From the NCBI RefSeq assembly GCF_004322855.1, contig NZ_CP036402.1:2542001-2606000 (forward strand): DNA of 64,000 bases. Direction: 5' to 3'. The position numbers were made by a program, and so were the translations under genes. The DNA is from Egibacter rhizosphaerae (GTDB lineage: Bacteria > Actinomycetota > Nitriliruptoria > Euzebyales > Egibacteraceae). The notes beneath the pieces were generated by a model. That model worked only from the letters and a program-made list of their open reading frames with translations. It was not told the origin of the DNA and did not search any database. Positions 51,283 to 56,439 of this stretch are shown piece by piece; position 1 is the first letter of the stretch; each line of letters begins with the position of its first letter.

Positions 51283-51353
51283 GGGTCAACGCGCTTCGGG
51301 GAACGGGCCGGGTCAATGCGCTTCGGGGAACGGGCCGGGTCAACGCGATTCGG
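51283..51353. repeat. 27-bp tandem repeat between mshD and glnR
   Basis: Two full units (51283-51309, 51310-51336) differ at one base, and a partial third runs to 51353 into the end of glnR. Each begins GGGTCAACGCGCTTCGGG. The array makes up most of the 78-bp gap between the convergent stops. Confidence 0.85.
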
Positions 51354-52062
51354 ACCCGTCCCCCTGCTGGCCGTGCTCGTCGGGGCGCCCGCCGGCGGCC
51401 GCCCCCTGAGGATCGAGCTTGTATCCGACGCCGCGCACCGTCCCGATCAGCTGCTCGTATTCGGCGCCGAGCTTCGCGCGGAGACGCCGGATGTGCACGT
51501 CGACGGTGCGGGTGCCGCCGAAGTAGTCGTATCCCCACACCTCCTGCAGCAGCTGGCTGCGTGTGTAGACCCGCCCCGGATGATTGGCGAGGAACTTCAG
51601 CAGCTCGAACTCGCGGAAGGTCAGGTCCAGCGGCCGGCCGCGCAGCCGCACGATGTAGGTCTCCTCGTCGATCTGGAGGTCACCGACGTTCGCGGCGCGC
51701 GCCGGGGCCTCCCGCTGGTGCCGGTCGACGGCGAGGCGCATCCGGGTCTCGACTTCCGCGGGTTGAGCGCTCGGCAGCAACCAGTCGTTGAAGCCCCACG
51801 AGGCCTTCAGCGCCGCGAGACCACCGTCGGACACGACCACGAGAACCGGGATCTCGAGGTCGCGAGCAGCCAGCTCGCGGCAGGTCGTGCTCGCCCCGGC
51901 GAGGTCGCGGGTGGCGTCCACGAGGACGAGGTCGACGTCGGTCTGGGCCTCGGCGGCCGCGGCGGCGAGGTCCCCCGTGGCCAGCTCGTGGTCGAGGAAG
52001 TCCAGTGCGGGCAGCATCTGCTTGGCCCGAGCGGTGTCGTCGGACAACACGAGGAGTCGCAC
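51340..52062 (-). CDS. glnR: GlnR-type OmpR-family nitrogen regulator
   Basis: 240 residues. The C-terminal winged helix is strongly GlnR-like: LDLTFREFELLKFLANHPGR, TRSQLLQEVWGYDYFGGTRT, VHIRRLRAKLG, IGTVRGVGYKL. The N-terminal receiver-like domain carries DLVLVDATRDLAGA and VSDGGLAALKASWGFNDWLL, as in GlnR, and lacks a typical acidic pocket. The GTG at 52062 has GAAGGA 7 nt upstream. GlnR controls ammonium assimilation in actinobacteria. Its gene lies tail-to-tail with mshD. Confidence 0.88.
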   Translation of the reverse strand: MRLLVLSDDTARAKQMLPALDFLDHELATGDLAAAAAEAQTDVDLVLVDATRDLAGASTTCRELAARDLEIPVLVVVSDGGLAALKASWGFNDWLLPSAQPAEVETRMRLAVDRHQREAPARAANVGDLQIDEETYIVRLRGRPLDLTFREFELLKFLANHPGRVYTRSQLLQEVWGYDYFGGTRTVDVHIRRLRAKLGAEYEQLIGTVRGVGYKLDPQGAAAGGRPDEHGQQGDGSESR

Positions 52063-52226
52063 GCAACGATCCTTCCCGATGTGTCCCTGGCGCGGACGGT
52101 AGCAGCCCGCCCGTCGACCGGCGGGGCGGCCCACGCACCCCGGGCGAGCCTCGGGCCGGCGCGCGAGACTCGTAGGGGAGGGCCGCCAGGATCCCTCAGC
52201 GACCCATGATGGCAGGAAGGTGTTTC

Positions 52227-52511
52227 GTGGCGGTTACGGTACGGATGTTCGCGGCCCTGCGCGAGGCCGCGGGGGAGACCGAGACCCAGGTGCCCGCCGG
52301 CAGCGTCGCCGAGGTCCTCGCGGAGGTGCGGCGCCGGTACGGGGAGCCGTTCACGAGCCGCCTCGCGCTCGCCTCCGTCCTCGTGGACGGGAACACGGTC
52401 GACCACGACGCCGACACGCCGGTCGAGGACGGGGCGGAGGTCGCGCTCCTGCCGCCGTTCAGCGGGGGCGGGTTTGCACTGTTCGCATCATCGACGGGGT
52501 GGGCATTGTGA
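52227..52511 (+). CDS. MoaD/ThiS-like sulfur-carrier protein with C-terminal tail
   Basis: 94 residues of beta-grasp type (VTVRMFAALREAAGETE, VEDGAEVALLPPFSGGG). The family normally ends at Gly-Gly, which is adenylated and thiocarboxylated. Here residues 80-82 are GGG and 12 more residues follow (FALFASSTGWAL). The tail must be removed, or the protein does not work as a classical carrier. The GTG at 52227 has GGAAGG 6 nt upstream. It precedes the HTH-TusA/DsrE operon by 132 nt. Confidence 0.8.
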   Translation: MAVTVRMFAALREAAGETETQVPAGSVAEVLAEVRRRYGEPFTSRLALASVLVDGNTVDHDADTPVEDGAEVALLPPFSGGGFALFASSTGWAL

Positions 52512-52643
52512 CCGTTTCCGCGCAGCCTCCCCCACTGTGCTGGCCGATACTGGCATGGTCGAGGTAGTGGGAACCTGGCAGACGGTGCAAACCGAGCGTG
52601 CGGCGCGCCGAGGCGGGCGGCCGAGCCCGTGGTGGAGGACTGG

Positions 52644-53645
52644 GTGACGACGACGGCGCCAGCCGACCAGTGGCAGCGGCGCGAGCAGACCGTGTCGGTC
52701 GATCGCGCGTTCGCGAGCCAGACGCGCGCGCAGATCCACGAGCGGCTCCTGGCCGACGGCGAGCCCTGGAGCGTGCGGGAGGTCGCCGACGCGTTCGACC
52801 TGCACCCCAACGTCGCCCGCAGCCATCTGGAGCTGCTGGCCGACGCGGGCCTGTTGTCGGTGGGCCGGCGCAAGCATCCCAGCGGCGGACGACCCGCGAA
52901 GGTCTACCGCGCCGACGACGGCGCCCCGGCCGCGGCGACGACCGGTGTGCTGCCGGGGGCACGCCTGCAGGTGGCGTTGCTGGCCGCGCTCGCGGACGCG
53001 CCCGCGGAGGGGGAGCCCCGCCCCGCCGACGCCCGAGCCCGGGCGATCGCGGTCGCCGAGGGACGACGGCTCGCCGAGGAGTTCCCGGCCGACCTCCCCG
53101 ACCCGCCGTCGCAGGACCTCGAGGCGGCCGTGCGGTCGGGCCTCGGCGCGCTCCGCCCGCACGCGCCCCAGGCCCGTGTCGTGGGTGCCGGGGATGACCA
53201 CGTCGACGTTGCGGGGGTCGCCACCGCATTCCAGCTCGTGCGGGAGCAGCGCCCCGAACTCGCCGATGCCCTCGAGCGTGGCCTGCTCGAGGGCGTCTTC
53301 GCCGGCTCGGAGCTGCCCGTGTCGGTGAGCGACGGTCCCGCACGCGAGGGTGAGCCGGTGCGCCGCCTCCGCCTCGCGCGCGGAGGGTCGGAGGGGCCGC
53401 TCATCGCGCGACGGCTCGACGCGCGCGCCCTCCCAAGGGAGAGCGGCGTGGTGCGCGCGATGCGCGAGATCACGGCCCTCGATCCCGGTGAGGTTCTGGA
53501 GGTCATCGCCGGAGGGCCGGGCTCGCCCGCCGCGTTCGCGCGATGGGCGGACCGGGCGGCGCACCAACTGCTGGCGGTCGAGCGCGCGACCGACGAGCAG
53601 GGGCGACCCGGCATCCGGTTGCTGATCCGCAAGGGCGACCGGTGA
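52644..53645 (+). CDS. HTH regulator fused to a TusA-like domain lacking the catalytic Cys
   Basis: 333 residues. The ArsR/MarR-like winged helix spans about residues 25-90 (WSVREVADAFDLHPNVARSH, LELLADAGLLSVG). The middle is Ala/Glu-rich with a possible small-molecule domain. The C-terminal 75 residues follow the TusA/SirA pattern (LDARALPRESGVVRAMREI, DPGEVLEVIAGG), but the CPxP cysteine is replaced (LPRESG). It may sense sulfur status instead of transferring sulfur. The GTG at 52644 has GGAGGA upstream. Its stop overlaps the next start (GTGA). Confidence 0.7.
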   Translation: MTTTAPADQWQRREQTVSVDRAFASQTRAQIHERLLADGEPWSVREVADAFDLHPNVARSHLELLADAGLLSVGRRKHPSGGRPAKVYRADDGAPAAATTGVLPGARLQVALLAALADAPAEGEPRPADARARAIAVAEGRRLAEEFPADLPDPPSQDLEAAVRSGLGALRPHAPQARVVGAGDDHVDVAGVATAFQLVREQRPELADALERGLLEGVFAGSELPVSVSDGPAREGEPVRRLRLARGGSEGPLIARRLDARALPRESGVVRAMREITALDPGEVLEVIAGGPGSPAAFARWADRAAHQLLAVERATDEQGRPGIRLLIRKGDR

Positions 53646-53971
53646 GCACCGCGGCGCGGAGGTCGCGCCGTCGCGCGCTGCTGGTCTCCCACCATCCCGC
53701 CCGTGAGCTGCGGACCGCCCGCCGGTGGGCCCGCGAGGGCGACGACGTGACCGTGGCGCTGCTCGACGCGGCGGTGGCCTGCGCGCGGCCCGGTCACGTC
53801 GACGGCCCGGCGCTACGGGCGGCCCGTGCCGATGGCGTGCGGGTGCTCGCGCATGACGCGGCGCTCGCGCGTCGCGGTCTGCGCGCCCCGGTCACCGAGG
53901 TCGAGGTATGCGACACCGAGACGCTCGCGGTGCTGGTGGCCGAGGAGGCGGAGGCGGTGGTGTGGCTGTGA
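53642..53971 (+). CDS. DsrE/TusB-like protein 1
   Basis: 109 residues starting at the overlapping GTG. The fold cues are DsrE-like: RRALLVSHHPARELRTARR, WAREGDDVTVALLDAAV, ADGVRVLAHDAALARRGL and a C-terminal AEAVVWL. DsrE-family proteins relay sulfane sulfur or bind cofactors; the catalytic Cys position is not clear here, although one Cys lies near VACARPG. Coupled to the HTH-TusA gene. Confidence 0.55.
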   Translation: MSTAARRSRRRALLVSHHPARELRTARRWAREGDDVTVALLDAAVACARPGHVDGPALRAARADGVRVLAHDAALARRGLRAPVTEVEVCDTETLAVLVAEEAEAVVWL

Positions 53972-53993
53972 TGTTGGCGGCGGTGGTGCTGCT

Positions 53994-54533
53994 GTGACGT
54001 CGGCGGGTCGACGCGTGGTGATCGTGCTCGGCGGCTGCGACGAGTCGGCGAGCACGGCCCTCGATCTCGCCGAGCGGCTGCACGCGCGCGGGCACCGGGT
54101 GAGCGTCGCCGCGCACGGCGAGGCGACGGAGCTGTCGCACCACGGCAGCCACGCCGCCGAGCGGATCTCAGGGCTGTTGCGTCGCGGGGTCGAGCACGCG
54201 CCGGTCGACTGGGTCGTCGACGGCGCCTCCGGCTCGGGCGTCGACGGCGCGTCCGGACCGGGCGAGCGTGGGCACGTCGCCGGGGTGGTCGAGGGCGATG
54301 CCGGCGAGCTGTGGGCGCTGGTCCGCGCCGCCGACGTCGTTCTCTCCCCGGGCTCGGGGGGCGGTCCCGGGTCGGGTACCGGCGAAGCGTGGCCCGCCGA
54401 CCCCGGCGGTCGGGAGCAGTCCGACGTGCCCGACCAACCGGGGGACGGCCGCGCCGACGGAGTCGAGCGGGAGCCCGGTGCGCCCGACCAACCGGGGCAC
54501 GGCCGCGCCGACGGCGCCGGGGAGGAGCGCTGA
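53994..54533 (+). CDS. DsrE-like protein 2 with repetitive disordered tail
   Basis: 179 residues. The first 110 (RRVVIVLGGCDESASTALDL, AERLHARGHRVSVAAHGEAT, then LWALVRAADVVLSPGSGG) suit a DsrE-like alpha/beta fold; Cys sits in LGGCDES. The tail is Gly/Asp/Pro-rich and contains a near-exact repeat of PDQPGxGRADG, encoded by a tandem DNA duplication. The start GTG is 22 nt after the previous stop; the stop overlaps the next start (TGATG). Confidence 0.5.
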   Translation: MTSAGRRVVIVLGGCDESASTALDLAERLHARGHRVSVAAHGEATELSHHGSHAAERISGLLRRGVEHAPVDWVVDGASGSGVDGASGPGERGHVAGVVEGDAGELWALVRAADVVLSPGSGGGPGSGTGEAWPADPGGREQSDVPDQPGDGRADGVEREPGAPDQPGHGRADGAGEER

Positions 54534-54892
54534 TGGCGCGACAGGTCGTGGCGATCCTGCGGCGGGGGCCCGCGGCGTGGTGCGTCCGGGATCCGGCACT
54601 CGACGCGACCGCGTACGCCTTGGCGGTCGACGTGGATCTCGTGCTCGTGCTCCGCGGTGACGCGGTGGAGCATGCGGTCGCCGGCCCGTCCGGGCGCGAG
54701 ACGAGCGTGCTCGCGAGCTCGGCCGCGGACCTGCGCGGGCTCGTCGAGTCCGGGGTGCGGGTTCAGGCCATCGCCGAGGACGCCGCCGCGCGCGGCCTCG
54801 GCGTCGCGGCGCTCGTCGACGGCGTTGAGCTGCTCGAGGTGGACCGGCTCGCGGGATGCCTCGCCGAGGCCGACGCCGTGCTGAACTGGTAG
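54533..54892 (+). CDS. DsrE/DsrH-like protein 3
   Basis: 119 residues: VVAILRRGPAAWCVRDPALD, AYALAVDVDLVLVLRGDAVE, DLRGLVESGVRVQAIAEDAA, then ARGLGV and the tail GVELLEVDRLAGCLAEADAV ending NW. The terminal Leu/Asp-Trp pattern is common in DsrH/TusB-type subunits. Together the three may form a DsrEFH/TusBCD-like heteromer. Last gene of the operon; a strong hairpin follows at 54982. Confidence 0.6.
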   Translation: MARQVVAILRRGPAAWCVRDPALDATAYALAVDVDLVLVLRGDAVEHAVAGPSGRETSVLASSAADLRGLVESGVRVQAIAEDAAARGLGVAALVDGVELLEVDRLAGCLAEADAVLNW

Positions 54893-55224: not shown

Positions 55225-55491
55225 TGACTGGACCACCTCCTTTCCGTCGTGATTCAGAGCATGACAGTCGCAGCGCCGCACGGCAACGATCGGTGGTCCA
55301 CATGCTCCCACCTGACCGATCGACGACCCCCACCGAGGGCGGTTGCCGGCGCCTCTCTCTGGCTGCGAGCTGTCGCGCGGGCCCACGGTGCGGGACGCCG
55401 GCGACCCCATACCGCCGCGTCCCGGAGCTGCAGCGCGCGCGGGCCCCGGTGCGCGGCTGCAGGGGTCGCCCGCGCTCGCCACACTTGCGGC

Positions 55492-56439
55492 ATGGATGCG
55501 AGCCCGCTGGTCGACACACCCGCCTACGTGCGCGACAACACCGGCGCGGTCGTCGTGACCGGCGCCGACCGGTTGAACTACCTGCAGTCGCTGCTCAGCC
55601 AGGACGCCGAGCGCCGAGAGGCCGGCGACGTGGCCGACTTCCTCTACCTCGACGCGAAGGGCAACGCCAAGGCCACCGGTCGCCTCGTCGTGCGCGAGGA
55701 CGACGTGCTGCTCCTCACGCCCCCCGACGTCGCGGCACCGCTGGCCGACGAGCTGGCGCGGTACACGTTCCTGCTCGACGCACCCAACGAGGACCGGTCG
55801 GCGGACTGGGTCATCGCGCGGGCCCGTGGTCCAGAGCCCGTTGACGGCTCCGCGGTCGGGGCGCCCGACGCGCCGATGCGGGCTCGTGTCGGCGTGGATG
55901 GCGTGGTGCTGCGGGACCGGTCCGGCGGAATCGATCTCGCCGGCCCCGCTCCCTGGGTGGCCGAGGCGGCCGAGTCGCTCGGATTGCCCGAGGCGGAGGC
56001 CGAGGACTGGCACCGCTGGCGCATCGCGTTCGGCGAGCCGGCTTGGGGCGCCGAGATCACCACCGGCCGTCGCCCGCAGGAGCTCGGCCTGCTGCCCACC
56101 CACGTGCACCTCGACAAGGGCTGCTACCCGGGCCAGGAATCGATCGCGAAGACGTACAACCTGGGTCGTCCACGGCGGTCGCTCTGCGTGGTCGAGTTCG
56201 ACGCCCCGGTGACCGCGGGCGCTGCGCTCGACGCGGGCGGCAAGCAGGGCGAGGTCACCAGCGCCGCACCCGACGGAGCCGGCTCGATCGCGCTCGCGCT
56301 CGTGCCGGTGGACCGGGAGGGCGCGCTCCGCGGAGAGGGGGAGGTCACCGTCGACGGTGTGTCCGGGCGAGTGCGGTCACGCGTCGGGGAGGGGCTGCCG
56401 CAACCCGGCGCCGAGCGCCAGCCGGGCTCGGCGCGCTGA
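55492..56439 (+). CDS. ygfZ: YgfZ/GcvT-like folate-binding protein
   Basis: 315 residues. The diagnostic KGCYPGQE motif is present (HLDKGCYPGQESIAKTYNLG), with the GcvT-like N-terminus VVVTGADRLNYLQSLLSQD. YgfZ uses tetrahydrofolate to help maintain certain Fe-S enzymes. The ATG at 55492 has no ribosome site and lies 7 nt after a -10-like CACACT, suggesting a leaderless message. The frame is open upstream to 55249 but is not protein-like there. Confidence 0.9.
   Translation: MDASPLVDTPAYVRDNTGAVVVTGADRLNYLQSLLSQDAERREAGDVADFLYLDAKGNAKATGRLVVREDDVLLLTPPDVAAPLADELARYTFLLDAPNEDRSADWVIARARGPEPVDGSAVGAPDAPMRARVGVDGVVLRDRSGGIDLAGPAPWVAEAAESLGLPEAEAEDWHRWRIAFGEPAWGAEITTGRRPQELGLLPTHVHLDKGCYPGQESIAKTYNLGRPRRSLCVVEFDAPVTAGAALDAGGKQGEVTSAAPDGAGSIALALVPVDREGALRGEGEVTVDGVSGRVRSRVGEGLPQPGAERQPGSAR

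Follow-up and report, generated by a model that had tools for sequence, protein, structure and literature searches.

A predicted, class-specific HTH-V4R-TusA regulator of sulfur assimilation in Nitriliruptoria, essentially free of cysteine

The MsvR protein of methanogens is an autoregulated regulator composed of an HTH and a V4R domain, which recognizes the box TTCGTA-N4-TACGAA and acts through conserved cysteine of its V4R domain (PMC3729527). The regulator presented here shares with MsvR the succession of HTH and V4R domain, conserved boxes in the DNA that precedes its own gene and, as predicted, autoregulation; it differs in possessing a TusA domain, which MsvR lacks, and in having lost the conserved V4R cysteines. 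The ArsR-type repressors sHdrR and SoxR, which are likewise winged-helix regulators of sulfur genes, govern sulfur oxidation and detect sulfane sulfur through two cysteines that are essential (PMC12423496), whereas the present regulator is without conserved cysteine. In Firmicutes, the regulator of cysteine metabolism CymR is controlled by the docking of a sulfur-pathway protein, CysK (PMC2940859). A similar docking is presumed here, although the repressor family of CymR is unrelated and CysK is catalytically active. The TusA and TusBCD or DsrEFH systems represent a further likeness, with a TusA fold, DsrE-superfamily folds and a three-gene set, but here the catalytic cysteine is absent and TusA is fused to a DNA-binding protein. 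Elsewhere in Actinomycetota, homologues that we take to be COG2345/SufR-like share the same helix and V4R domain over about 240 residues, as well as a half-site, GTTTNCAC, in their promoters; unlike the regulator described here, they retain the cysteines of the V4R domain (CPF..C..C) and end before the TusA domain.

A literature search of mostly non-subscription papers returned none that joins TusA with V4R, or a "TusA domain" with a helix-turn-helix fusion, and among titles and abstracts dealing with sulfur regulation together with TusA or Nitriliruptor, nothing on an HTH-V4R-TusA protein appeared. The regulator is likely novel, and the control of sulfur assimilation in the deep-branching Nitriliruptoria appears to be previously undescribed. 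This analysis provides a candidate regulator, a predicted DNA site and a list of targets for sulfur assimilation in this class. If true, a dead enzyme relay has been converted into a signalling device.

The locus lies in the window, a stretch of 64,000 nucleotides from Egibacter rhizosphaerae, and its features are collected in Table 1.

Table 1. Features of the regulator locus, in window positions
Feature	Position	Strand	Description
GlnR-like response regulator	51340-52134	-	neighbour of the regulator locus
MoaD/ThiS-family sulfur-carrier-like protein	52206..52511	+	Pfam ThiS 3.5e-12; NCBIfam MoaD family 1.4e-13
Predicted operator GTTTGCACTGTTCGCAT	52472..52488	+	one mismatch to GTTNNCACNGTTNNCAC; footprint common to class promoters
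Second half-site GGTTTGCACC	52585..52594	-	closer to the start codon and opposite in orientation to the first; read directly from the sequence
Transcription regulator	52644..53645	+	winged helix (residues about 19-90), V4R/Bet3-fold (residues about 98-250), Cys-less TusA (residues about 250-332)
d1, DsrH/TusB-like, no conserved Cys	53642..53971	+	family profile to DsrH 2hy5_C, E=0.002; weaker to TusB 2d1p_C
d2, DsrE-fold, no conserved Cys, low-complexity C-terminal tail	53994..54533	+	fold match to TusD, DsrE and YchN
d3, DsrE/DsrH-like, no conserved Cys	54533..54892	+	Pfam DsrE E=3.2e-6, above cut-off; TusB model 7e-5, below cut-off

The sequence-only reading had described the regulator as an HTH protein with a C-terminal TusA-like domain, and both parts are borne out, while a central V4R-type domain had been overlooked. 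Profile search places HTH_20 at the N-terminus (E=7.9e-9, above the Pfam cut-off) and TusA, PF01206, at the C-terminus (E=5.1e-7, 29.9 bits against a cut-off of 28.6), the sole PF01206 match in the 4.64-Mb single-contig genome. The AlphaFold model, computed like that of d2 as a single chain, shows three parts with a mean pLDDT of 89.7 and a pTM of 0.61, and because of the latter the placement of the domains relative to each other is unsure. In this model, residues 250-332 superpose on the TusA structure 3lvj_C (VIA Z 12.7, rmsd 2.0, 77 residues, 29% identity), and residues 98-250 match the TRAPP TPC6/Bet3 folds with Z up to 12.1 over 138 residues. Bet3 and V4R form one superfamily, and the central domain is accordingly named V4R-type. 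A Foldseek search with the whole regulator gave mostly long methyltransferase matches with TMq of about 0.2 and rmsd over 20, which were discarded as artefact.

The three small proteins downstream resemble DsrE and DsrH as had been proposed, each by a different line of evidence, and all three are DsrE-superfamily proteins. The product of d3 is recognized by Pfam. As a single sequence d1 falls below the Pfam cut-off (DsrE 0.008, DsrH 0.026), and its family profile matches DsrH across the entire length. The sequence match of d2 is weak and below the Pfam cut-off alone, and a profile search against the PDB was topped by the chance matches RecR and ClpC; the fold was therefore taken from a predicted structure. 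This model has a DsrE fold (Z 14.8 to both TusD 2d1p_A and DsrE 2hy5_A), and it is by this modelled fold alone that d2 is assigned to the DsrE superfamily. Its tail (window 54330-54530) is of low complexity with a repeated PDQPG(D/H)GRADG unit, and relatives are without it. Translational coupling of the regulator and the trio, also proposed earlier, agrees with overlaps of 4 bases between regulator and d1 and of 1 base between d2 and d3, but d1 and d2 are separated by 22 bases and coupling is therefore not indicated for that pair. The MoaD-like carrier reported upstream is indeed present, and its gene holds the same position in the loci of many relatives. It bears a 13-residue tail beyond the GG (window 52470-52511), while several relatives end exactly at GG.

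Among 32 aligned regulator homologues there are 14 cysteines in total, at most 2 per column, and 19 of the 32 rows have none. As the sequence-only reading had noticed, the CPxP cysteine of TusA is absent; it is missing from every aligned homologue as well, whereas the stand-alone TusA proteins of class relatives retain CPxP, and the TusA part is thereby ruled out as an active transferase. The V4R cysteine set has been lost within the class, and the two conserved sensing cysteines of ArsR-type sulfane-sulfur sensors (SqrR/sHdrR) find no equivalent column in the alignment. Judged from these alignments, the regulator no longer has either of its sites for sulfur or metal chemistry, a loss that has become fixed throughout the class. 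The trio follows the same pattern: the active cysteine of TusD/DsrE is missing in d1-d3, and their alignments of 17-21 rows have no conserved cysteine, the count in any column being 4 at most.

Each of the 29 good relatives contains a protein matching the regulator. In a phylum sample of 296 genomes, the fusion is matched in 26 of the 27 genomes of the class Nitriliruptoria, which shows that the homologues are not always separate; in 25 of these 26 it is a single full-length protein, and in the remaining one (G015) it is split over two frames. No regulator was found in the last of the 27 class genomes, a draft (G033). In this draft the motif described below nevertheless stands at MoeZ and CysO/CysM (L069) with the full fusion not found, representing a gap or a loss. 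Across the 269 genomes of the phylum outside the class, no homologue match extends into the TusA domain, and a second, independent collection agrees with this distribution. Where relatives of the regulator carry a name, they belong to Egibacter, Egibacteraceae, Euzebyaceae, Nitriliruptoraceae and Salsipaludibacter albus, and by these names the one actinobacterial class in which the fusion is fixed is Nitriliruptoria. Most relatives additionally possess a separate live TusA; in the Egibacter genome no stand-alone live TusA was detected, and a CxxC DsrE is encoded elsewhere.

The order regulator-d1-d2-d3 is conserved in 21 of the 37 loci examined, our own included, and the gene set is therefore not due to chance. 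Where present, the trio adjoins the regulator, but it is missing from many class genomes that have the fusion; it is thus accessory and not a required part of the module. That it occurs in five families of the class suggests an ancestral trio with several later losses. One genome (G005) carries the fusion twice, in one case with the trio and in the other without it (L035 and L036).

From the words common to the regulator upstream stretches across the class, a 17-bp motif, GTTNNCACNGTTNNCAC, was obtained. These stretches contain 7 exact and 11 one-mismatch sites, or 18 in total against 0.04 expected (0.02 exact and 0.02 one-mismatch, from the rest of the same loci), a count that is partly circular by itself, since these same promoters supplied the motif. 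The predicted operator of Table 1 is the only site with at most one mismatch in the window, where 0.11 would be expected; it overlaps the coding tail of the MoaD-like protein. Relatives carry GTTTGCAC-type sites near the same place as the second half-site. Winged-helix dimers usually take inverted repeats, which speaks against the regulator as binder, the motif consisting chiefly of a direct repeat of 9 bp with partial palindromic symmetry. Some promoters in the class families f1-f3 are without a good site. A strict 16-mer, GTTYGCACNGTTYGCA, proved too narrow as the motif, and a SigR-type promoter reading appears unlikely from the SigR consensus.

A scan of 41 whole class genomes found 40 exact sites for the motif and 12 for the reversed pattern as control, and the genes downstream are mostly on the strand of the motif. 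They comprise MoeZ (7), the regulator itself (7), an SseA-type sulfurtransferase (5), 1-Cys peroxiredoxin (4), the Mec/CysO/CysM operon (3), sulfite reductase (3), MetY (2) and TauE (1), with PAPS reductase behind a motif-preceded sulfite reductase at one locus (L164). By manual tally, about 32 of the 40 sites stand at the regulator or at sulfur and thiol genes, the other eight being unexplained or chance-like. Of 30 MoeZ orthologues, 14 have a promoter site with at most one mismatch, situated at -79 to -161, and 6 more have one with two mismatches, where about 0 would be expected; 13 of these 20 promoters belong to genomes not used in choosing MoeZ. Sulfite reductase promoters carry a site with at most one mismatch in 5 of 10 cases. 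In family f4, the motif precedes the 1-Cys peroxiredoxin gene in four genomes (L169, L171, L174, L176), hinting at thiol redox defence within the regulon. The predicted regulon joins CysO/MoaD-type sulfur carriers, rhodaneses and sulfite reduction, and the regulator is predicted from these sites to be an autoregulated controller of sulfur assimilation. In the Egibacter genome itself the evidence is thin, consisting of the regulator site (one mismatch), a two-mismatch site at -126 of MoeZ and one doubtful sulfonate-type binding protein. One-mismatch sites number 10 in this genome against 6 for the control, near chance level, and for seven of the eight scanned the nearest gene is non-sulfur (integrase, formamidase, TetR, PHP, Kelch and others). 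The eighth directly precedes the gene of the SsuA/NMT1-like binding protein, a doubtful target, alongside which no permease was found.

The binding of GTTNNCACNGTTNNCAC by the regulator is what we infer from the sequence comparison, and the main competing reading gives the motif to another protein, such as the GlnR-like response regulator, and makes the HTH-TusA gene one more member of the sulfur regulon. A GlnR-like gene is near the regulator locus in most genomes, and the motif is a direct repeat, as is typical of the OmpR family; its spacing of 9 bp nevertheless departs from the 10-11 bp usual for that family. Where the GlnR-like gene is 5 kb away (L058), the motif stays with the regulator. 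Additionally, the HTH-V4R homologues outside the class, which have no TusA, carry the GTTTNCAC half-site in their own promoters (6 against 0.22 expected, although two groups of closely related members account for most of the six). This links the motif with the helix family and favours the regulator helix over its GlnR-like neighbour as the binder. We therefore regard binding by another regulator as unlikely. The motif is enriched inside the class (37 sites against 7 for the control) and not outside it (about 39 against 60, manual count), and its class boundary mirrors that of the fusion.

Two further readings concern what the sulfur-relay folds do. The TusA domain and trio could form a scaffold controlling a sulfur-relay enzyme, with the DNA-binding part merely autoregulating the operon; the gene set and folds resemble TusBCD, and the promoter of the operon itself carries the motif, yet many members without the trio still have the fusion as well as motif sites at further sulfur genes, and we consider this quite improbable. 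The sequence-only reading had seen a sensor of persulfide or thiol status, not a transferase. That the protein is no transferase and is tied to sulfur control stands, the latter on the motif evidence. Sensing by its own TusA/DsrE parts would suit the predicted sulfur-gene regulon and the Tus/Dsr folds, and ArsR-type persulfide sensors exist (PMC12423496), but those need two conserved cysteines, and none is conserved in the regulator or d1-d3. With the V4R and TusA cysteine sets both gone and most homologues cysteine-free, direct sensing is very unlikely indeed. Docking to another sulfur protein is the more likely role of the TusA and DsrE-like parts.

The explanation that we consider probable is a class-specific, essentially cysteine-free regulator of sulfur acquisition and distribution, whose winged helix binds GTTNNCACNGTTNNCAC and whose signal comes through docking or a ligand and not from cysteine chemistry of its own. 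The helix would bind the motif in its own promoter, giving autoregulation, and at the promoters of MoeZ, the SseA-type sulfurtransferase, Mec/CysO/CysM, sulfite and PAPS reductase, MetY, TauE and peroxiredoxin. As input, either a sulfur-transfer partner would dock on the dead TusA domain or the V4R-type fold would take up a ligand, and the V4R-type domain would relay this state to the helix. Where the trio is present, the dead DsrE-like proteins may dock with the sulfur-transfer partner as a co-regulator. The domain composition, the absence of conserved cysteine, the conservation, and the motif with its positions and its limitation to the class are computed results; we infer the docking mechanism, its partner and the sign of regulation, and propose docking between TusA and the trio by analogy only. 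The wider proposal, that a whole cysteine-stripped relay (TusA and a TusBCD-like trio) was repurposed as a docking sensor setting the sulfur-assimilation regulon of the class, is tentative, and we rather doubt it.

A gene for a YgfZ-like Fe-S assembly protein lies downstream (window 55486-56439) and is near the regulator in many relatives. Near the regulator locus of several relatives, on the opposite strand, a cysteine-containing DsrE with the sequence VCTPCATRRGL is encoded (L036, 7503-7964, with similar genes in L035, L037, L038, L040, L041, L044 and L059), and it is a possible candidate for the docking partner.
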